From the NCBI RefSeq assembly GCF_944324745.1, contig NZ_CALUXO010000056.1, forward strand, positions 1-64,000: a stretch of 64,000 nucleotides of DNA, read 5' to 3'. The stretch is from an uncultured Thomasclavelia sp. (GTDB lineage Bacteria > Bacillota_I > Bacilli_A > Erysipelotrichales > Coprobacillaceae). The notes under the pieces are model-generated. The model was given only the letters and a program-made list of their open reading frames with translations. It had not been told where the DNA came from and made no database searches. Below, piece after piece: positions 1,448-7,736 of the stretch. The number at the start of each line of letters is the position of its first letter. Within the stretch, counting starts at the first letter, position 1. A program made the translations under genes and the position numbers.

Positions 1448-4400
1448 ATGAGGAAATTGCAAGCTAGAAGTAAGAAAATCTTAAAATTATTAGTGATATT
1501 ATTGATGGTTTTTACTTGTACGATTGGAAATATGCAAACGATCAATGCAACTAGCTATACCGGACCATTTACTCGAGTTAAAGAATTAGATTATCCTAAA
1601 TGGTGGGCTCAAAAACTAGGAGTCAAACAATGGAGTACCTGGATGTGTACTTTCAATGGTCAGTGGTCATATTGTCTGGAGTCAAGTAAAACTAGCCCGG
1701 GAGCCGGTGAAAAAACAGCTCAGGAATTAATTGATTCCAACGAGATGGTCAGTAAGTTATTGTATTATGGATATGGGGGACCTGCAGCTTTGCCAGGAAA
1801 TTTAGATGGTACCGGAACTGGCCTTAGTGATGATGGTTTAAGCGTTGGGGAAACCCATTATCTATATACCCATGTTTTACTATCGATTGCCTATAGTGGT
1901 GACATGATGGGTGTTGATTTGGATGGTTTAGAAAGTTTGGGGATTGGTTTAAAAGGATTATATAATTATATTGCCAGTTTACCAGCACCAATCGCCCCTC
2001 ACTTAAGTGATAATCTAACGGCAAGTTTTGATGTGGACAACCGAAACCAGAAAACCAATACAGTTACCTTTGTTGCCAGTGAAAATGCAACCATTAATGT
2101 TACTTTACAAGATGGTGTCACGCTTCATAATGTTACAACGGGTACTAGTGGCACTGGGGTCGTAGCTGTTAATGGTGGGCAAAGTTTTTATTTGACGGCA
2201 CCAATGTCTTTAAGTGGCGATTATACTAGTGGTAATATTGCGGGAAATAACTGCAATCGTTTTGTTCCGTTGGCAATTTATGGTAGTGGTAATACCCAGA
2301 CTCATGGTAGTTATGCTTATGATAGTGCTATTGTTAATTATACAGTTAAGTGGTTAGATACAGGAAATTTAGAACTTAGTAAAACTAATACTAATCAAGA
2401 TTTAATTGACGGAGCAGTTTTTGAGTTAAAATCTACCAGTTATGATGGTTATTTAGAAAATATAACCGTTAAAGAGGGAAAAATTGTCATTAATAATTTA
2501 CCATTAGGAACTTATGAGTTAAAAGAAATTAGTGCTCCTGAGGGTTATTTATTAAATAGTGAAATTTTTAAAGTAACTATTAATGCTAATGAAACAACTA
2601 GTCAAAGCATCAGTGATCAAGAACCCCTTGGTAGAATTGAATTGACTAAAGAAATTGATTCTTCTAAAACTGATGGCCAAACTGGTGAAGCTTTTTTGTC
2701 AGGAAATGTCTATGGTTTATATGCTAAAGAAAAAATCACTAATCAGGCTAAGACCATAACTTATTATAATCAAGATGAGTTGATCGATAAACAGACAACT
2801 GATAATGAAGGAAAAATAGTTTTTGATAATTTGCACCTAGGTAATTATTATCTAAAAGAGATTCAAAGTAATGATTCTCTTGTTTTAAATAATCAAACGA
2901 TAGATGTCGCATTGACATATGAAGATCAAACGGTAAGTAAAGTAATTAAAACAACGAAAAGTTCTGATCGGGTCAATATGCAAAAAATCCAGGTTCATAA
3001 ATCTGGTGAAAAAGATGGGATAAGTGGTTTTGTCAAAGGTCTGCAGGGCTGTGAATTTACTTTCAAACTTAAAAGTGAAGTTGATCATGTTGGATGGGAC
3101 AATGCCTTGACTTATGATGTTATTACTAGTGATGAAGATGGTAAAGCAACTACTAAATATCTGCCATATGGTACTTATTTAGTAAAGGAAACTAAAACGC
3201 CTAAAGATTATCTAACCGCTCCTGACTTTACGATAACTATTAGTGATGATTATAGTGAATATAAGGATATAGAACAAATTAAAACGATCGATATTAATAA
3301 TCGCCCAATGACTACGCAGCTAAAATTAATTAAACGTGATCAAGAAACAAACGAAATAGTTTCTTTAAACAGTGCTGTTTTCCAAATTAAAGCTAAAGAG
3401 GATATTGTTGTAAATGGACAGGTTATCTATCAGGCTGGTGAACCAGTAGTCCAAAAGGTAAGTGGTAAAAATTATGATACTTTTACTACTAACAGTGATA
3501 ATCTCATTATTAGTAGTGGTTATGTAAATCCTGATAATTCACCGGGAACCGTAATTTTACCACTTCAATTAGATCCTGGAAAATATTATCTGGAAGAAGT
3601 TAAGACACCAGCAGGTTTTTTATCATTGACAGCACCGATTGAGTTTACAGTTGAAAATATTCGTGATTATAATCAAGATGATGATGGTGATTATTTATTG
3701 GAAATTAATGTTGTCAATAGTCGTCCTAAAGCAATGTTGGAAATATTTAAATCGATTGTTTCAAAAGAGAGTGATACTAACTTAACTGATATTGATGATC
3801 TTTCTGCGATTAAATTTAAATTAACAGCCAAAGAAGAGATAATCTCACCAATCGATGGCAGTGTAATTTATGGAAAAGGAGCAACCATTGGTGAATATAA
3901 TTTATCGAAAGATGGTTATTTAAAGATTTCTGATTTACCAATGGGGGTTGGAGAAACTAAATATCAGCTACAAGAAATTGAAACATTGCCCGGACTAGTT
4001 TTAGATAACCAAAAATATGATGTTGTTTTTACACAAGATGATGATACTACGAAAGAATATTCATTAAAGTTAGAATTGGAAAATCGACCAACGGATTTAC
4101 AATTTTATAAAACTGATGTGGCCGGTAATGAAGTTGCCGGAGCTAAATTGCAGATAATTGATCTCGATGGTCAAGTGATAGACCAGTGGATTTCAACGAA
4201 CGAGCCACATACAATTCAAGGATTAACTGCTGGACAAACCTATATTTTACATGAAGAATTAAGTCCATTAGGTTATAATTTGAGTCGTGATATTGAATTT
4301 ACTGTTAAAAATACTACCGACAGTCAAAATATTACGATGGTCGATACCGTAACGAAAGTGATTAAGGTCGATGAAGACGGTAATCTGTTAGAAGGAGCTA

Positions 4401-5176
4401 AGTTACAAATAATCGATCAAAGTACTGGTGAAATTGTTGATAGCTGGACTTCTAGGCAACATTTATTTGATATGACACCAGAATTGCAACAAAAGCTGCA
4501 AAATCAAGAGACAGTTTCTGGCCAATTATCAGATGAAGCGTTAACTAGTTATACTATTTATCCTGATGAAGATAATTTTATTTTAAAGTTAGAAACAAAA
4601 GAAACTACCAGCTATCATTATATTGATATTAATGGTAATGAAACCTATCATCTGGCTTGGAATCTAGAAACTGATAAGACGTATCTTTGCAAAGAAATTG
4701 CTGCTCCATTAGGTTATGCTACAGCTCAAAGTCAAGAATTTAAAGTTACCGATCAAGATGTTGTTTTAACGATTGAAAATCAAATAACTAAAGTAGAAAT
4801 TTCTAAAATTGATTTAACTAATCAACAAGAATTACCAGGAGCCTCATTACTAGTTAAAGATAGTCAAGGAAATATTGTCGATGAGTGGGTTTCTACAACT
4901 TCACCTCATTTAATCAAAGGCTTACATGTAGGTCAAGAATATACTTTGGTAGAGACTGCAGCTCCTAAAGGATATGCCTTAGCTGAAATGGTTAAATTTA
5001 CGATTGAAGATACTGGAGAAATTCAAAAAGTAGTCATGTATGATAATCTATTAGCAGTTAAAACTGGTGATCAAAGTGACCTTAGAATGTTGTTAGTTTT
5101 AATGGCTGGTTCAGGATTGATGATTATGATCGGTGGTTTATATATGTATCGCCGTCGTCAAAAGAAAATAAGTTAA
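1448..5176 (+). CDS. SpaA/Cna-B repeat surface adhesin with thioester-like N-domain
   Basis: This is a 1242-residue cell-wall-anchored protein, probably a fibrillar adhesin or pilin-like stalk. Residues 1-35 form a Sec signal peptide. Residues about 40-180 resemble a thioester/TQXA-type head: two cysteines (C67 and C76, in MCTFNG and YCLESS), and later YTHVLLS where the family's TQ-A motif is expected, so the usual Gln appears replaced by His. Residues about 305-1200 hold a chain of SpaA/Cna-B domains, recognised by repeated E-box endings such as EISAPEGY, ETKTPKDY, EVKTPAGF, EELSPLGY, EIAAPLGY and ETAAPKGY, the usual isopeptide-forming Glu region. The C-terminus has a sortase signal, LAVKTGD, a hydrophobic helix and an Arg/Lys tail. 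An AAGGAGG ribosome site precedes ATG 1448. No sortase gene is in the window, so anchoring would use one elsewhere. Confidence 0.88.
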   Translation: MRKLQARSKKILKLLVILLMVFTCTIGNMQTINATSYTGPFTRVKELDYPKWWAQKLGVKQWSTWMCTFNGQWSYCLESSKTSPGAGEKTAQELIDSNEMVSKLLYYGYGGPAALPGNLDGTGTGLSDDGLSVGETHYLYTHVLLSIAYSGDMMGVDLDGLESLGIGLKGLYNYIASLPAPIAPHLSDNLTASFDVDNRNQKTNTVTFVASENATINVTLQDGVTLHNVTTGTSGTGVVAVNGGQSFYLTAPMSLSGDYTSGNIAGNNCNRFVPLAIYGSGNTQTHGSYAYDSAIVNYTVKWLDTGNLELSKTNTNQDLIDGAVFELKSTSYDGYLENITVKEGKIVINNLPLGTYELKEISAPEGYLLNSEIFKVTINANETTSQSISDQEPLGRIELTKEIDSSKTDGQTGEAFLSGNVYGLYAKEKITNQAKTITYYNQDELIDKQTTDNEGKIVFDNLHLGNYYLKEIQSNDSLVLNNQTIDVALTYEDQTVSKVIKTTKSSDRVNMQKIQVHKSGEKDGISGFVKGLQGCEFTFKLKSEVDHVGWDNALTYDVITSDEDGKATTKYLPYGTYLVKETKTPKDYLTAPDFTITISDDYSEYKDIEQIKTIDINNRPMTTQLKLIKRDQETNEIVSLNSAVFQIKAKEDIVVNGQVIYQAGEPVVQKVSGKNYDTFTTNSDNLIISSGYVNPDNSPGTVILPLQLDPGKYYLEEVKTPAGFLSLTAPIEFTVENIRDYNQDDDGDYLLEINVVNSRPKAMLEIFKSIVSKESDTNLTDIDDLSAIKFKLTAKEEIISPIDGSVIYGKGATIGEYNLSKDGYLKISDLPMGVGETKYQLQEIETLPGLVLDNQKYDVVFTQDDDTTKEYSLKLELENRPTDLQFYKTDVAGNEVAGAKLQIIDLDGQVIDQWISTNEPHTIQGLTAGQTYILHEELSPLGYNLSRDIEFTVKNTTDSQNITMVDTVTKVIKVDEDGNLLEGAKLQIIDQSTGEIVDSWTSRQHLFDMTPELQQKLQNQETVSGQLSDEALTSYTIYPDEDNFILKLETKETTSYHYIDINGNETYHLAWNLETDKTYLCKEIAAPLGYATAQSQEFKVTDQDVVLTIENQITKVEISKIDLTNQQELPGASLLVKDSQGNIVDEWVSTTSPHLIKGLHVGQEYTLVETAAPKGYALAEMVKFTIEDTGEIQKVVMYDNLLAVKTGDQSDLRMLLVLMAGSGLMIMIGGLYMYRRRQKKIS

Positions 5177-5564: not shown

Positions 5565-5661
5565 CTGCAAACAGGAATTTATAAAGTTATAATTATAGAT
5601 AATCAGTTAGGATTGAATAAATAACAAATTGTAACATATTAATTTAAAAGAGGTGAGTTGG

Positions 5662-6639
5662 ATGAAAGTTGCTGATATGCATTGTGATACGATTTTAAGG
5701 ATTTATAGTGAAGGTGGTAACTTACGTGATAACGGTTATAATATAGATTTAAATAAGATGGTAAAAGGAGATTATTTATTACAAAATTTTGCCATGTTTG
5801 TTGATTTAAATGATCAGTTAGATCCGTTGACCAAAGCTCAGCGATTAATAGATTTATATTATCGAGAAATTGAAAAAAATAGTGATTTAATTAAACCGGT
5901 ATATTGTTATCAAGATATTATTGATAATCAAAAGAATAATTTAATGTCAGCGATGCTAACTTTGGAAGAAGGAGCCGTTGTCAATGATGATTTAGCTATT
6001 TTACGTAATTATTATCGATTAGGGGTTAGAATGATTACACTAACCTGGAACTATCCTAATGGAATAGGTTATCCAAATATGCTTGAAGGTGAAGGCTTTG
6101 ATCGTTTAAAAAATATTAATACAGAAAAAGGATTAACTGAATTTGGAATTAAGTATATTCAGGAAATGGAACGATTAGGAATTATTATTGATGTTTCTCA
6201 TTTAGGTGATGCCGGTTTTTATGATGTATTAAAATATACTACGAAACCATTTGTAGCATCTCATAGTAATAGTCGCAGTGTTTGTGATGTGGCTCGTAAT
6301 ATGTCTGATGATATGATAAAAAAATTAGCAAGTCGCGGTGGCATAATGGGAATTAATTTCTGTGGTGATTTTTTAAAGCAATCAGATACTGGTGATGAAC
6401 GTTCTTGTGTAGCAGATATGGTCAAACATATTTTATATATCCGTGATTTAGTTGGTATTGATTATATTGGTTTAGGAACGGATTTTGATGGTATTAGTCA
6501 AAATTTAGAAATTAAAGATGCTTCAATGATGCCTTTATTACATGAGGCTTTATTAAAAGCAGGATTAAGTGAAGAAGAAGTTGCTAAAGTTTTTTATCGT
6601 AATGTTTTACGAGTATATCAGGAAGTTTTGCAAAAATAA
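5662..6639 (+). CDS. Membrane dipeptidase family (peptidase M19)
   Basis: This is a 325-residue zinc-dependent dipeptidase of the renal dipeptidase family, probably hydrolysing L-D or L-L dipeptides in the cytoplasm (no signal peptide). The expected ligand motifs appear in order: HxD in DMHCDT near the start, the bridging Glu in LEEGAV, His in DVSHLGD and ASHSNSRS, and Asp in LGTDFDG. The frame is also open from a GTG at 5653, but that codon lies within the AGAGGTG ribosome site, so ATG 5662 is the likely start. It is monocistronic: the following hairpin at 6641-6667 overlaps its 3' boundary. Confidence 0.88.
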   Translation: MKVADMHCDTILRIYSEGGNLRDNGYNIDLNKMVKGDYLLQNFAMFVDLNDQLDPLTKAQRLIDLYYREIEKNSDLIKPVYCYQDIIDNQKNNLMSAMLTLEEGAVVNDDLAILRNYYRLGVRMITLTWNYPNGIGYPNMLEGEGFDRLKNINTEKGLTEFGIKYIQEMERLGIIIDVSHLGDAGFYDVLKYTTKPFVASHSNSRSVCDVARNMSDDMIKKLASRGGIMGINFCGDFLKQSDTGDERSCVADMVKHILYIRDLVGIDYIGLGTDFDGISQNLEIKDASMMPLLHEALLKAGLSEEEVAKVFYRNVLRVYQEVLQK

Positions 6640-6780
6640 AATGACAAGTGGGGAAAACACTTGTCATTCTTTATTAGTTATCAGGGAAAGGATACTAATA
6701 ATATATGATATCAGGGAAGGATATCGTTATATCTTGTAGTCATCATATTGAAGGGAAAATCGAATATCTTTTGACTACGT
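6630..6780 (-). ncRNA. Candidate small RNA: four hairpins with UUCCC loops
   Basis: Four consecutive hairpins each carry GGGAA in the loop on plus, or UUCCC on minus. H0: ATGACAAGTG/CACTTGTCAT (6641-6667, loop GGGAAAA). H1: 9-bp stem with one bulge (6673-6699, loop AGGGAAAG). H2: GATATC/GATATC (6707-6725, loop AGGGAAG). H3: GTAGTCA/TGACTAC with inner ATATT/AATAT (6736-6778, loop containing AAGGGAAAA). Read on minus, H0 is last and is followed by TTTATTTTTGC, a better U tract than the plus side offers, so a minus transcript ending there is my preferred reading. A weak TTACAA-17-TATATA pair upstream on minus could be its promoter. A plus-strand 3'UTR element or operator array is the alternative. 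Confidence 0.42.
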
Positions 6781-6920
6781 TTATAATATATAATAAAAGG
6801 TTGGTAAAATTGTAAGATAAATATGGTAAATTATGTGAAATTTATTCTTTAGCACCGGTAATCGGGCTATTTTAAAATAAATAAATATAGTGTATAATAC
6901 ACATAAATGGAGGAACGCAT

Positions 6921-7736
6921 ATGAAGAGTTTGTTTTATCGATTGATTATCTTTTTAGATACAGCAAGTGAAGCTGATACCAATTATAATATTGCCTGGTA
7001 TATGGCTCATAATTTTTCTAAAGTGGCTAAGATGGGAATTAGTCAATTAGCCAAAGAATGCTATGTTTCACCGGCAACGATTTCACGGTTTTGTCGGGCT
7101 CTTGGTTATGAAAATTTTGCTCACTTGAAACAAGAATGCGCTTCGTTTGCCTCAAATGATAAAAAGTTCAACAATTTGATCAATGTTCCTTTAAGTGTTA
7201 TGAAAGATGATCCTCAGGCATCGACAAAATATTATAGTGAACAAGTTTGTCAGGCAGTTTCCAAATTAACAGATTATCTTGATTGGGATGTTATTGATAA
7301 AGTATTAGCATTGATTCATGATAGTGAATCAGTGGCGTTTTTTGGAACTCAGTTTTCTCATTCGGCAGCTTTACATTTTCAAACCGACTTATTGATGTTA
7401 GAAAAATTCACAATGGCCTATATGGAAACTGAACGTCAAATTGAATGTGCTCGTTCATTGGATGCTAATAGTGTGGCCATTATAATTTCGGTAAATGGTT
7501 TTTATTTGAATAATAGTAGTAAAGTAGTCCAATATCTAAAAAAAGCTCGTTGTAAAGTTGTTTTAATTACCAACAATCCAGGACTTGATATTAATATCAA
7601 TGTTGATTATACTATCGTATTAGGTGATAGTAAACAACGTAAAACGGGGAAACATACTTTATTGACAACTGTTGAGTTAATGTCACTTAGATATTATTCT
7701 TTATATTATCCAAATATTCAAGAAAATATTATTTAA
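6921..7736 (+). CDS. RpiR/MurR-family transcription regulator
   Basis: A 271-residue regulator with an N-terminal RpiR-type helix-turn-helix (about residues 1-80; GISQLAKECYVSPATISRFCRALGY region) and a C-terminal SIS sugar-phosphate-binding domain (about 115-250; VAFFGTQFSHSAA and VAIIISVNG are typical SIS strands and loops). RpiR proteins sense phosphosugars and regulate sugar catabolic genes. A TATAAT at 6893-6898 and a TGGAGG ribosome site precede it. The gene is followed by a weak A/T-stem hairpin (about 7735-7757) and then fumarase genes in the same direction, so it may control them, although the effector is unknown. Confidence 0.85.
   Translation: MKSLFYRLIIFLDTASEADTNYNIAWYMAHNFSKVAKMGISQLAKECYVSPATISRFCRALGYENFAHLKQECASFASNDKKFNNLINVPLSVMKDDPQASTKYYSEQVCQAVSKLTDYLDWDVIDKVLALIHDSESVAFFGTQFSHSAALHFQTDLLMLEKFTMAYMETERQIECARSLDANSVAIIISVNGFYLNNSSKVVQYLKKARCKVVLITNNPGLDININVDYTIVLGDSKQRKTGKHTLLTTVELMSLRYYSLYYPNIQENII

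Follow-up and report, generated by a model that had tools for sequence, protein, structure and literature searches.

The sequence analysed here (the window) is a 64,000-nucleotide stretch of a contig from an uncultured Thomasclavelia sp. The region of interest lies between genes for an M19 dipeptidase and an RpiR-type regulator, and Pfam matches to both (Table 1) bear out the position given in a first-pass annotation of the DNA. Four consecutive hairpins, foldable on both strands, occupy positions 6638-6778 (numbered in Table 1 in their minus-strand order), and each carries UUCCC (GGGAA on the plus strand) in its loop. These hairpins, as reported in that annotation, are genuine features of the predicted structure: the fold z-score of the element is -4.5 on the plus strand and -5.8 on the minus strand, and the element outscored 200 of 200 dinucleotide shuffles on each. 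The description of their stems as unrelated is correct in part, given that hairpins 2 and 3 have common flanks around the loop (TATC..AGGGAA(A)G..GATA on the plus strand). Three GGGAA words at the spacing of the element occur in this genome at the element itself and at three other sites (C70, C93 and C97). No convincing reading frame was found on the minus strand of the window copy. Elsewhere in the window, positions 1448-5176 encode a large, repeat-rich surface protein that resembles a pilin or adhesin and is membrane-anchored at its C-terminus.

Table 1. Genes and predicted features at the locus (window coordinates).
Feature	Position	Strand	Remarks
M19 dipeptidase gene	5653..6639	plus	PF01244; convergent with the sRNA
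RpiR-type regulator gene	6921..7736	plus	PF01418 (HTH_6); divergent from the sRNA
Upstream box TCACATAATTT	6828..6838	minus	likely activator site; TCACA invariant in relatives
-10-like hexamer TATATT	6785..6790	minus	TATACT or TATAAT in most relatives
Predicted sRNA	6630..6778	minus	~145-150 nt; genus conservation, model R1, fold z -5.8
Predicted sRNA ends	5' near 6778; 3' within U-rich tail 6637-6630	minus	
Hairpin 1	6736..6778	minus	GUAGUC..GACUAC stem, loop UUUUCCCUU; UCCC at 6756-6753
Hairpin 2	6707..6725	minus	GAUAUC-CUUCCCU-GAUAUC; UCCC at 6717-6714
Hairpin 3	6671..6701	minus	loop CUUUCCCUG; UCCC at 6687-6684
Hairpin 4, predicted intrinsic terminator	6638..6670	minus	loop UUUUCCC, tail AUUUUUGC; UCCC at 6654-6651

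The TCACA of the upstream box is located 60 or 61 nt upstream of the first stem (GUAGUC) in 29 of 29 aligned loci, and 7-12 nt upstream of the same stem lies a -10-like hexamer, which in most loci reads TATACT, TATAAT or TATATT; the -35 region has no consensus. The box constitutes independent evidence because the RNA models left the upstream part out. In relatives it consists of repeats spaced by 11 bp (e.g., TCACATATTTT-TTGACAATT), and in one diverged member (G039) TCACAT repeats follow one another in steps of 10-11 bp. These repeats are probably an OmpR-type response-regulator site, and TCACATATTTTTTGACAATT is a candidate binding sequence for the activator. Searching by the box revealed further diverged copies, in genus g9, that had escaped the RNA model; these adjoin rpiR, and their hairpins, which have different stems, carry UUCCCU and CUCCC. 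In a separate locus (L329; G028:C297:5775-5794), a TCACAT box lies upstream of a sequence that contains a terminator and two UCCC words and may be another relative.

At the sequence level, the element has both a putative promoter of its own (-10-like hexamer and box) and a predicted intrinsic terminator (hairpin with U-tract). The latter is the last minus-strand hairpin, for which a terminator role had been suggested and which combines a U-rich tail, a positive terminator score and a covarying stem. Hairpin 4 scores positively on the plus strand alike, and the dipeptidase mRNA may be ended here too. The promoter-like elements, the best terminators and, in relatives, the strongest U-tracts are on the minus strand, and the evidence points to an element that is read from this strand.

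The stem-loops are conserved in relatives, as would be expected of the RNA proposed earlier. The element is present in 9 of 9 Thomasclavelia-type genomes searched, and the eight other genus copies have 75-87% identity to the window copy over the aligned part; in one genome (G008) the whole unit is duplicated in tandem, each copy with its own upstream region, box and terminator. A first covariance model (R1), built from the nine genus sequences, matched the window copy at 6637-6780 on the minus strand and found shorter relatives in other genera of the family. Over all searches, such shorter forms (~110-125 nt) came from about a dozen further genera. Named relatives include Thomasclavelia (T. 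cocleata DSM 1551), Longibaculum muris, Massilimicrobiota and Candidatus Stoquefichus. In the family relatives, UUUUCCCUU is carried by a GUAGUC..GACUAC hairpin, CUUUCCCAAAC by a GAUAUC hairpin and CUCCCACC by the terminator; hairpin 3 is an extra hairpin seen in the genus of the window only. A second model, for which 14 of the shorter relatives were used, gave strong matches throughout the family; among 316 genomes of the order and 395 genomes of the class, no match beyond the family was accepted. Those at order and class level that were inspected (G203, G204, G338 and weaker ones, G502 excepted) were judged to be spurious, being bare terminators or coding DNA, and those of model R1 in G027 and G028 appeared spurious as well.

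The first-pass annotation had proposed to test whether stems covary around constant loops, which is true of part of the element. In the genus alignment, the named base pairs are formed in 94% of cells, and six pairs, including four of the terminator stem, show changes in both partners, in excess of shuffled and slid controls. Six terminator-stem pairs show double changes among the family relatives, in which the loop is mostly still CUCCC. Little covariation support comes from the two inner stems because these barely vary, that of hairpin 2 being invariant within the genus. Mean pairwise loop identity in the genus is 97% for hairpin 1 and 100% for hairpin 3, and 58% for the terminator, whose loop is not constant at this level. 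The clearest support for the proposed selection on the loop comes from the g9 copies, where the same loops in hairpins of different stem suggest that the loop and the promoter, rather than the stem sequence, are under selection.

All 95 UCCC words in 31 RNAs, the window copy included, are predicted to be unpaired with a probability >0.8, compared with a mean of 0.36-0.51 over the whole molecules. In 24 of the 31 RNAs, UCCC is more frequent than in shuffles (P<0.05), tests that are not independent because the RNAs are related. The window copy has four UCCC words in 144 nt, all four unpaired, against a shuffle mean of 1.7 (P about 0.02, single sequence). Several redundant, accessible UCCC sites, usually including one in the terminator loop, are thus a feature of these RNAs, though the terminator-loop site is absent in G006, G008a, G013 and the g9 copies. 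Redundant accessible loops of the same sequence would also be expected of a protein sponge, in which the partner of the UCCC loops would be some unknown RNA chaperone or regulator and not mRNAs. However, the known UCCC sRNAs of low-GC bacteria work through base pairing (PMC4132741, PMC2873960), and we regard protein binding as unlikely.

In the usual family locus, a convergent M19 dipeptidase gene lies on one side of the RNA and a divergent rpiR gene on the other, and this orientation holds wherever the dipeptidase gene adjoins the RNA. The presence of both genes beside the RNA in most genera could suggest a cis-acting antisense or terminator device for dipeptidase or rpiR alone. Yet the RNA is kept despite the loss of rpiR in some lineages and of both neighbours in others. 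In the diverged members G039, G040 and G018 the usual neighbours are absent and three or four UCCC sites are kept, the G039 and G018 copies adjoining unrelated genes. The loops are also conserved, for which cis antisense pairing would have no need, and we regard a cis-acting device as very unlikely. A plus-strand reading along the lines of the first-pass annotation, in which a plus-strand RNA or the 3' untranslated region of the dipeptidase mRNA titrates a CsrA-like protein through AGGGA loops, has in its favour those loops, a stable plus-strand fold and the plus-strand score of hairpin 4, but is very improbable given that csrA had no match in 43 family genomes (control genomes positive), that the element is kept where no dipeptidase gene was found beside it (G004, G005, G007), and that promoter-like elements and the relatives' strongest U-tracts are on the minus strand.

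The reading preferred here is a stand-alone, trans-acting, Hfq-independent minus-strand sRNA gene of the LhrC type, with a probably OmpR-activated promoter and redundant UCCC seeds that block ribosome binding sites, to which we assign a probability of about 0.78. Conservation, promoter features, terminator covariation, retention without neighbours and loop accessibility all favour the multi-seed minus-strand sRNA suggested initially. Transcription would run from a promoter belonging to the element, with an OmpR-family response regulator at the TCACAT repeats as the probable activator, to the element's own intrinsic terminator. The hairpins would keep three to four redundant UCCC loops unpaired, which could then pair with G-rich Shine-Dalgarno sequences (GGGA) in several mRNAs, whose translation would be blocked without Hfq. 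No hfq match was found in the same 43 family genomes, control genomes again being positive.

Candidate targets were sought through the loop complements, and the evidence for them is weak. The complement of the first loop, GAAGGGAAAA, occurs near ATG in excess of a reversed-pattern control, as ordinary Shine-Dalgarno sequences would likewise. In a sample of 1056 predicted genes of G003, GGGA is marginally associated with envelope or membrane-protein genes (odds ratio 1.6, p 0.01 uncorrected, 20 patterns). In genus g12, the leader of a DUF2207 gene (L242, L243, L229; Pfam run on one of the three species) contains gaagggaaaac, an 11-nt match to the first loop that is kept in three species. For the CUUUCCCAAA and GUUUUCCCUUC seeds, no single target recurred across genera, and duplex energies on whole sequences were uninformative. 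The leader of a secreted-protein gene in genus g19 (L198, L199) contains TTTGGGAAAGGGGAATACGAGCATG, which matches the second loop; this word is also present in another genus (G027:C1:483662), which may mean a mobile gene.

The predicted sRNA was compared with known systems. In Listeria monocytogenes, LhrC binds the lapB ribosome site through three UCCC sites; its response element is located upstream of -53, and the effect does not depend on Hfq (PMC4132741). The family RNAs share with LhrC redundant UCCC loop sites including the terminator loop, multicopy paralogs, a far-upstream box and (as predicted here) target regulation without Hfq. They differ in stems, host lineage and genomic place, and in that each UCCC has its own hairpin, up to four, and hfq was not found in this family. 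LhrC is also LisRK-dependent and induced by envelope stress, for which the observation here is the conserved upstream box alone. A cmscan of 16 loci against Rfam (E<=1) gave no sRNA family match to the element, LhrC included, and a weak, below-cut-off match to Spot 42 fell outside it. Since the plan is the same, with no Rfam match and no hfq found, the RNA appears to act as LhrC does while falling outside that family. The CiaR-dependent csRNAs of streptococci also exist as several related copies and are under a two-component system (PMC3091779); the family RNAs differ from them in the absence of an Rfam match. RsaE/RoxS and other UCCC sRNAs of Staphylococcus and Bacillus likewise expose unpaired UCCC, which targets ribosome binding sites (PMC2873960), but the Rfam scan matched none of them in sequence or structure. 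The earlier description of the RNA as undescribed therefore holds for Rfam 15 and the literature searched, in which sRNAs of this bacterial family apparently have no earlier description. The predicted core sRNA, with a promoter-like box and repeated seeds, has clear orthologs in the cultured T. cocleata and L. muris, and the LhrC parallel where hfq was not found allows multi-seed sRNA action to be tested without the chaperone.

A second, paralogous type is found within the genus. It shares the GAUAUC-UUUCCC-GAUAUC hairpin; its hairpin 1 includes a UUUUUCAAUCCUUUCUC-like stretch, and its upstream motif is another one (TTTACCAT-like). The genome of the window has one such paralog (L059; G000:C78:15887-15996), which was detected via the RNA model; a DNA search of the same genome for copies of the element gave chance-level matches only. 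A broader view, which we hold tentatively and consider somewhat doubtful, is that core RNA and paralogs form an undescribed family-wide sRNA system of Coprobacillaceae-type gut bacteria, in which a core RNA in a mostly fixed chromosomal place and its paralogs, under one ancient response-regulator box, would act as a general multi-seed brake on the translation of envelope proteins.

Further second-type paralogs were noted at L053-L058, L076, L077 and L091, some near tatD or an ABC transporter gene. L054 contains, next to a G003 paralog, a bacterial small SRP RNA at 1884-1969 (Rfam match). A conserved C-rich candidate RNA was seen at L092 (G001:C72:15236-15361, minus) and L093 (G007:C43:17304-17430), which has UACACUUCCCCGC..UUUUCCUCCCCG and a terminator containing GGCUUCCCCCGCC. 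Another candidate RNA, common to two genera (L094, G017:C17; L095, G013:C21), carries GAUUCCCCUC and AUAUCCCUA, and its terminator loop is UUUCCCC or GACCCC.
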